The notes under the pieces were generated by a model, which was given only the letters and a program-made list of their open reading frames with translations, searched no databases and was not told where the DNA came from. DNA of 64,000 nt, from positions 1-64,000 of the forward strand of contig JANRDC010000015.1 in assembly GCA_030726725.1 (NCBI GenBank), read 5' to 3'. Each line of letters opens with the position of its first letter. The stretch's first letter is position 1. Below are positions 9,517 through 11,246 of this stretch, one piece after another. The stretch comes from Flavobacteriaceae bacterium. Its GTDB lineage: Bacteria; Bacteroidota; Bacteroidia; Flavobacteriales; Flavobacteriaceae. A program made the translations under genes and the position numbers.

Positions 9517-9547
9517 TTTGCAGCCCCAAAAAAATAATATAAATTTG
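9517..9547 (+). promoter_or_regulatory. Promoter of rpmB-rpmG-DUF4295
   Basis: TTTG at 9517-9520, a 19-base spacer and TAAATTTG at 9540-9547 match the Bacteroidota consensus in sequence and spacing. The 9-mer TTTGCAGCC occurs at both elements (9517-9525 and 9544-9552), forming a direct repeat 27 bp apart. A leader of roughly 28 bases is predicted. Confidence 0.75.
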
Positions 9548-9579: not shown

Positions 9580-9801
9580 ATGTCTAAAGTGTGCGAAATT
9601 ACTGGTAAGAAAGCGATGGTTGGAAACAACGTTTCTTTCTCGATCAATAAAACCAAGAGAAGGTTTGAGGTAAACCTTTCTAAAAAGCGTTTTTACATTC
9701 CTGAAGAGGATCGTTGGATCACTTTGAAAGTGTCTGCTAAGGCGTTGAAATCAATTAACAAGAAGGGTATTTCTGCTGTTTTGAAAGAAGCAGGCAAATA
9801 A
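9580..9801 (+). CDS. rpmB: 50S ribosomal protein L28 (bL28)
   Basis: This 73-aa basic protein starts MSKVCEITGKKAMVGNNVSF, the typical bL28 N-terminus, with SKKRFYIPEEDRWITLKVS in the second half. It is a structural protein of the large subunit near the L1 side. It is first in a three-gene run with rpmG (24-bp gap) and the DUF4295 gene (8-bp gap), an arrangement characteristic of Bacteroidota, with its own promoter at 9517-9547 and a shared terminator at 10188-10217. ATG 9580 is the only sensible start. Confidence 0.96.
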   Translation: MSKVCEITGKKAMVGNNVSFSINKTKRRFEVNLSKKRFYIPEEDRWITLKVSAKALKSINKKGISAVLKEAGK

Positions 9802-9825: not shown

Positions 9826-10008
9826 ATGGCAAAAAAAGGCAATAGAATTCAGGTAATTTTGGAGTGCACCGAGCACAAAGAGTCCGGCATGGCTGGAACA
9901 TCTCGTTATGTGACTACCAAAAACAAAAAAAACACGCCAGACCGTATGGAGATTAAGAAATTTAATCCCATCCTAAAGCGTATGACTGTACACAAAGAAA
10001 TTAAATAA
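9826..10008 (+). CDS. rpmG: 50S ribosomal protein L33 (bL33)
   Basis: This 60-aa protein has the bL33 pattern: [15 protein letters not shown], then [16 protein letters not shown], then [15 protein letters not shown]. Only one cysteine (C14) is present, so this is a zinc-independent (C-minus) form; no zinc-ribbon paralogue lies in the window. It is the middle gene of the rpmB operon. Confidence 0.96.
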
Positions 10009-10016
10009 GCAATACC

Positions 10017-10169
10017 ATGGCAAAGAAGACAGTAGCATCTCTACAAACTAGCTCTAAGCGTTTGACCAAAGCCATCAAAATGGTTAAGTCACCTAAAACT
10101 GGTGCTTACACTTTTGTTGATTCTGTAATGTCACCCGAATTAGTTGGTGCCTGGTTGGACAAAAAATAA
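10017..10169 (+). CDS. DUF4295 family protein, 50 aa
   Basis: This very short gene begins MAKKTVASLQTSSKRLTKAI and ends LVGAWLDKK. The protein is basic at the N-terminus, with a middle KSPKTGAYTFVDSVMSPE. It matches DUF4295, a Bacteroidota-specific family routinely found directly after rpmB and rpmG. The position 8 bp after rpmG and before the operon terminator, plus the size and charge, suggest a ribosome-associated protein. The function is not established as far as I know, and the ribosomal role is inferred from context only. At 50 aa it is easily missed by gene finders. Confidence 0.93.
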   Translation: MAKKTVASLQTSSKRLTKAIKMVKSPKTGAYTFVDSVMSPELVGAWLDKK

Positions 10170-10187
10170 TGACACTGGAGTCATCTG

Positions 10188-10217
10188 AAAAAGCTGCTTG
10201 AAAAAGCAGCTTTTTTT
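10188..10217 (+). terminator. Intrinsic terminator of rpmB operon
   Basis: The stem AAGCTGCTT (10191-10199) pairs with AAGCAGCTT (10204-10212) around a GAAA tetraloop. It is extended by A-T pairs and followed by a run of seven Ts (10211-10217). Confidence 0.9.
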
Positions 10218-10235: not shown

Positions 10236-10269
10236 TTTGAGCAGGAGCCAAGTTCATGTTGTATCTTTG
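10236..10269 (+). promoter_or_regulatory. Promoter of ftsY-rimO operon
   Basis: TTTG at 10236-10239, 22 bases, then TATCTTTG at 10262-10269 matches the Bacteroidota promoter. A leader of about 16 bases to the ftsY ATG at 10290 is predicted. Confidence 0.75.
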
Positions 10270-10289: not shown

Positions 10290-11246
10290 ATGAGTTTCTT
10301 TAAAAAGATTTTCTCTTCACCCGATAAGGAAAAATTGGATCAAGGCCTTGAGCCTTCAAAGCAGTCTTTTATCGCCAAGCTTGAAAAGGCGGTCATGGGT
10401 AAGGATCAAGTAGATGACGATGTGCTTGATGAACTTGAGGAAGTGCTGATAGCCAGCGATGTTGGTGTGGCCACGACACTTAAAGTAGTTGATCGTGTTC
10501 AGCAGCGGGTGAAGAAAGATAAATATGTCGGTGTAGATCAACTCCACGGGATACTGAAACAAGAGATCGCTTCACTATTTTTAGAACAAGACAAATCACC
10601 AGAGTACCTATGGGAGCAAAAACCACATGTGATTATGGTGGTTGGTGTCAATGGAGCGGGTAAAACCACCACTATTGGAAAGTTAGCGCACCAGTTTAAA
10701 GCAAAAGGATTAAATGTGCTACTCGGGGCCGCTGATACGTTTAGGGCTGCAGCCATTGATCAGCTTCAGGTATGGGCTGATCGCGCGCAGGTGCCTATGG
10801 TGCGTCAACAAATGGGATCGGATCCGGCCTCTGTCGCTTTTGAAGCGATCACTGAAGGTGTGCAGCGGGGCGCTGATGTGGTGATTGTTGACACTGCAGG
10901 TCGTCTGCACAACAAAGTGAATTTGATGAATGAACTCGCCAAAATAAAACGCGTGATGGAGCGCGTAGTTCCAGGAGCGCCCCACGAGGTGTTGTTGGTG
11001 CTGGATGGATCCACAGGTCAGAACGCTTTTGAACAAGCCAAACAATTTACGTTGGCTACTGAAGTGACGGCATTGGCCATCACTAAACTGGACGGCACAG
11101 CAAAAGGGGGTGTGGTGCTCGGTATTTCAGATCAGTTTCAGATACCGGTGCGCTATATCGGTGTTGGTGAAGGGATAGAAGATCTTCAAGCATTTGACCG
11201 AGTAGCTTTTGTTCAGTCCTTTTTTAACTTGAAAAAAGAAGCTTAA
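10290..11246 (+). CDS. ftsY: Signal recognition particle receptor FtsY
   Basis: FtsY is the membrane-associated SRP receptor GTPase for co-translational targeting. The 318-aa protein holds an N domain (about 25-105) and a G domain with G1 GVNGAGKTT (119-127), DTFRAAA (149-155), DTAGR (201-205), TKLDGTAKGG (265-274) and the closing GVGEGIEDLQAFD. The acidic A domain found in Escherichia coli is absent; only MSFFKKIFSS and a short charged stretch precede the N domain, as is usual in Bacteroidota. The rimO ATG overlaps its stop (TAATG). Confidence 0.97.
   Translation: MSFFKKIFSSPDKEKLDQGLEPSKQSFIAKLEKAVMGKDQVDDDVLDELEEVLIASDVGVATTLKVVDRVQQRVKKDKYVGVDQLHGILKQEIASLFLEQDKSPEYLWEQKPHVIMVVGVNGAGKTTTIGKLAHQFKAKGLNVLLGAADTFRAAAIDQLQVWADRAQVPMVRQQMGSDPASVAFEAITEGVQRGADVVIVDTAGRLHNKVNLMNELAKIKRVMERVVPGAPHEVLLVLDGSTGQNAFEQAKQFTLATEVTALAITKLDGTAKGGVVLGISDQFQIPVRYIGVGEGIEDLQAFDRVAFVQSFFNLKKEA

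Follow-up and report, generated by a model that had tools for sequence, protein, structure and literature searches.

The bL38 locus

In the window, by which we mean the whole stretch of 64,000 nucleotides that was analysed, a short open reading frame (ORF) of the forward strand follows the genes of the ribosomal proteins bL28 and bL33. The features of the locus are as follows.

9517-9547, forward strand: putative promoter TTTG-N-TAnnTTTG 5' of rpmB (pattern match)
9580-9801, forward strand: rpmB, encoding bL28, 73 residues (Pfam bL28, 95.1 bits)
9826-10008, forward strand: rpmG, encoding bL33, 60 residues (Pfam bL33, 68.3 bits)
10017-10169, forward strand: bL38 (DUF4295) gene, ATG start, 50 codons, 50 residues
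10187-10217, forward strand: hairpin with T tract, probable intrinsic terminator of rpmB-rpmG-bL38 (folding)
10236-10269, forward strand: putative separate ftsY promoter, TTTG...TAnnTTTG, between the bL38 terminator and ftsY (pattern match)
10290-11246, forward strand: ftsY, the next gene, probably on a separate transcript

The gaps are 24 bp between rpmB and rpmG and 8 bp between rpmG and the bL38 ORF. The first-pass annotation had placed the ORF within the rpmB-rpmG operon; the grouping with the two genes stands, but the ORF comes third, downstream of rpmG, and not between them. In all 50 same-class loci examined (as in the window itself), bL33 lies directly upstream and on the same strand; bL28 was seen in 43 of them, and FtsY follows downstream in 47, but note that some of the flanks are short. 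In E. coli K-12, one of our negative controls, rpmB-rpmG is followed by mutM and not by bL38.

The hairpin covers positions 10187 to 10216, with a T tract up to 10217, and the respective stretch of 53 nt folds with -19.8 kcal/mol (z = -4.17). The two promoter-like sites were assigned with the consensus TTTG-N-TAnnTTTG, which we take to be the promoter pattern of Bacteroidota. We counted five matches to this pattern in the 64-kb window versus 2.39 expected, and 11 of 100 shuffles reach five; this is a weak signal, and no significant excess. A first promoter pattern with a fixed spacing missed both sites, and simple terminator and sigma-70 scans of the window reported neither the promoter-like sites nor the hairpin. 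Since a hairpin with a T tract follows bL38, and promoter-like sites precede both rpmB and ftsY, we infer that rpmB, rpmG and bL38 are probably co-transcribed as one unit, with ftsY apart.

To quantify the coding status, the ORF was compared with six relatives. The comparison gave 0.58-0.83 differences per synonymous site and 0.07-0.17 per non-synonymous site; since the former by far exceed the latter, the ORF is not a product of chance and is under purifying selection. As had been noted before, the protein is basic (10 K+R versus 3 D+E, pI 10.2). A search of the whole genome to which the window belongs found a single copy of the gene. The warning that a gene of this size may fall below common gene-length cut-offs is borne out by Flavobacterium columnare, in which, according to the available part of PMC5395568, the homologue was absent from the original annotation and was picked up as an expressed intergenic region. 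The AlphaFold model of the window protein is poor (pLDDT 58.4), and no PHROGs family matches the protein.

Identity of the protein

Pfam assigns the window protein to PF14128 (DUF4295) with 62.8 bits, compared to a gathering cut-off of 27. In a phmmer search against PDB, its residues 1-50 aligned with residues 1-50 of 7jil_4, "50S ribosomal protein L38" (E = 4.4e-21), and 41 of the 50 positions are identical as counted on the alignment. The search also returned 9i5t_15, "DUF4295 domain-containing protein", with E = 3e-8; with profile A1, which had been built with weakly matching sequences from outside the class, the E-value was 3.6e-22, and chains of 7jil and 9i5t were the only significant matches. 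Both entries also contain bL28, and are thus ribosomes. We see as well that entry 9i5x has the bL28 sequence of 9i5t and 9i5v, yet no DUF4295 chain is listed for it.

The bL38 of F. johnsoniae (7JIL chain 4; also 9oz9, 9ozn, 9ozz and 9p0e) likewise has 50 residues and aligns from end to end; the nine substitutions that separate it from the window protein lie mostly in the C-terminal third. The DUF4295 protein of 9i5t and 9i5v belongs to the same family and stems from a ribosome entry as well, but has 49 residues and is more distant.

The window gene is therefore an already known ribosomal protein gene. In the part of PMC10618245 available to us, bL38 is named as a component of the F. johnsoniae ribosome, called "recently identified" and credited to Jha et al. 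2021. The earlier interpretation as a ribosomal subunit protein of Bacteroidota was right in kind, and both the 7JIL match and the same part of PMC10618245 allow it to be specified as bL38 of the large subunit; the protein is not new, and the word "undescribed" has to be dropped, as it has been modelled in 7JIL and treated by name in PMC10618245. The other option offered at the time, an assembly factor, is less likely given that the ribosome model of F. johnsoniae includes this protein. In the CC-licensed literature the names DUF4295 and bL38 are hardly connected; we found DUF4295 there with F. columnare only, and no paper for 9OZ9 or 9I5T. Pfam and the annotation of plasmid records still use the name DUF4295. 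With this domain of unknown function settled, DUF4295 should be renamed bL38, and the PF14128 profile should be widened.

Distribution of bL38 in the phylum

Using PF14128, we found a match at E <= 0.001 in 225 of the 392 genomes that were sampled from the phylum; 159 of these were above the curated cut-off. Profile A5, which was widened with members found adjoining rpmB-rpmG, matched in 367 of the 392 genomes and in 161 of 179 genera, nearly always once per genome; note that 367 leans towards itself, since some of the sequences in A5 come from genomes on which it was run. The negative controls (PF14128 in 14 named genomes, with a match in Bacteroides only, and the E. coli K-12 locus) pertain to PF14128 and to the locus, and not to the widened A5. 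All of the 105 entries counted for the genome of the window and for its family, order and class were matched by both PF14128 and A5, and the non-matching genomes among the entries listed are of other classes.

From outside of the class we picked 20 weak PF14128 matches. Seventeen of these lie directly after bL28-bL33 and can for this reason be regarded as orthologues by position; the remaining three do not. Of 20 genomes missed by Pfam, 14 were matched by profile A1, and two of the 14 matches adjoin bL28-bL33. One of 15 profile matches, L086 (E = 0.009), was dropped as it lay inside a long unrelated frame. In a genome scan with 411 pattern matches, 200 proved to be relatives, of which the best 80 were kept. 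The titles of these best 80 loci name Bacteroidota or Bacteroidetes, Chlorobi, Kapabacteria, Ignavibacteria, Melioribacter, Chloroherpeton and similar groups, or a plain "bacterium". In none of the 80 did we find bL28 or bL33 within flanks of up to 2.5 kb, so these loci are assigned by sequence alone. In summary, the linkage to rpmB-rpmG marks only a part of the phylum, and the PF14128 model misses divergent members (L032-L051, L072-L085 and L087-L166).

Of the 25 genomes without an A5 match 20 were examined, and bL33 was found in 19. A simple start-pattern scan of these 19 bL33 loci has shown no bL38-like ORF, which suggests that some deep families seem to be truly devoid of bL38. The bL33 locus of one such family has a different operon layout, with an ORF that looks SecE-like by eye (L184:1900-2034). 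The expectation of a lineage-restricted protein is correct on the level of the phylum, as indicated by the 14 control genomes and by the titles from the genome scan; the family extends well beyond the class, and to one phage contig. An additional 50S protein that is nearly phylum-wide is of relevance to drugs that target the ribosome, and to comparisons with Borrelia.

Proposed role and alternative explanations

We are highly confident in the explanation as a whole: the ORF is bL38, probably belongs to one operon with bL28 and bL33, and most likely acts as a brace at the periphery of the 50S subunit that may tune the GTPase region. In Bacteroidota, bL38 is a small basic 50S protein, which would be produced from one operon together with bL28 and bL33. 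As for its location, which we take from the literature, it is most likely found on the outer side of the 50S subunit, in the neighbourhood of uL6, uL14 and bL19 and by the 23S rRNA helices H95 and H97. There it would brace the 23S rRNA close to the base of the arm with the sarcin-ricin loop, and this role of a peripheral brace is the best-supported one. bL38 may also tune the sarcin-ricin loop region, that is, the place where the translation GTPases bind.

The location draws on a comparison with Borrelia burgdorferi, whose bL38 (bb0162) is reported, in the part of PMC10618245 that we could use, to lie at H95 and H97 with uL6 and uL14. The F. johnsoniae protein is described there at a distance of 14 Å from the Borrelia protein, within the same neighbourhood, which is structurally conserved; the two thus share a region of the 50S subunit, but they are displaced against each other and differ in internal structure. 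In the same part of PMC10618245 it is stated that the authors did not find the Borrelia protein using the F. johnsoniae sequence. Likewise, searching PDB (Borrelia ribosome 8fmw included) with profiles A1 and A2, we obtained no Borrelia chains at E up to 10. Judged by these sequence searches, Borrelia bL38 is an unproven homologue of the Bacteroidota protein, and the shared name may mislead.

A protein that is small and basic, and apparently dispensed with by a few deep families, might also be an assembly or hibernation factor which binds to the 50S subunit only for a time. We consider this very unlikely, as 7JIL includes bL38 among its ribosomal proteins, and further ribosome entries contain it too; moreover, the available part of PMC10618245 terms the Borrelia counterpart a stable 50S component and describes it as unaltered in a 50S class. 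Still less probable, to a degree that we hardly reckon with it, is that a non-ribosomal protein merely rides in the operon: in Ignavibacteria, Kapabacteria and similar groups the gene indeed lies apart from rpmB-rpmG, but a homologue with 41 of 50 identical residues forms part of a solved ribosome structure, and 7JIL contradicts this explanation. That the ORF is spurious, for which only its length of 50 codons speaks, is practically out of the question in view of the purifying selection, the Pfam score, the solved structures and the expressed F. columnare homologue (available part of PMC5395568).

A copy of bL38 on a phage contig

While the window gene is an ordinary one, a copy in a phage deserves a second look. 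The IMG/VR contig IMGVR_UViG_3300024262_000198 contains an ORF of 49 residues (L168:5001-5150) that is 48% identical to the window protein and matches PF14128 with 54 bits; PHROGs has no family for it. Directly after the ORF there are 13 tRNA genes with two HNH endonucleases among them, and bL28, bL33 and FtsY do not occur in the L168 stretch of the contig. Elsewhere on the contig we find a major head protein, a head maturation protease, a portal protein, a clamp loader and an exonuclease. The contig represents part of the genome of a T4-like huge phage. Its portal protein is 62.6% identical to that of an uncultured phage of 735 kb and about 34% identical to those of the Prevotella Lak phages. 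The ORF just before the phage bL38 has a homologue (41%) in a 635-kb phage with a related portal, where tRNA genes are nearby; for two other ORFs neighbouring the phage bL38, nothing matched in the phage collection.

The viral bL38 is one case on one assembled contig. Neither of two profiles found bL38 in six related huge-phage records at E up to 10, a tblastn search over 50,697 phage records found none, and scans of IMG/VR with the window protein and with profiles including A4, A8 and A9 gave no viral bL38 beyond this contig. In the literature that we searched there was no report of a viral bL38, and neither "bL38" nor "DUF4295" occurs in the main text of PMC6375957, which deals with 14 viral ribosomal proteins, or of PMC13157829.

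There are precedents for such a gene. Phage-encoded bS21, bL12, bL31 and bL33 (available parts of PMC6375957 and PMC9723584) are likewise small ribosomal protein genes amid phage neighbours, but the proteins are different ones. Bacteroidetes phages are among those with bS21 (available part of PMC9723584), and phage bS21 and bL12 enter E. coli ribosomes (available part of PMC6375957). On the contig the bL38 gene stands ahead of the tRNA array; by analogy with these two, we lean slightly towards the view that this huge T4-like phage, with a host among the Bacteroidota, inserts its own bL38 into 50S subunits of the host during infection, which would make bL38 another ribosomal protein acquired by viruses. 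The phage copy, if real, would be a further candidate for the few ribosomal proteins that are encoded by viruses. In a tree, the phage copy joins two sequences of the same class as the window (90/91) on a long branch, which makes the placement unsure. Finally, the phage bL38 gene is rich in AT, as is the phage, with a GC content of 0.245 (GC3 0.163), the value for the phage being 0.297.
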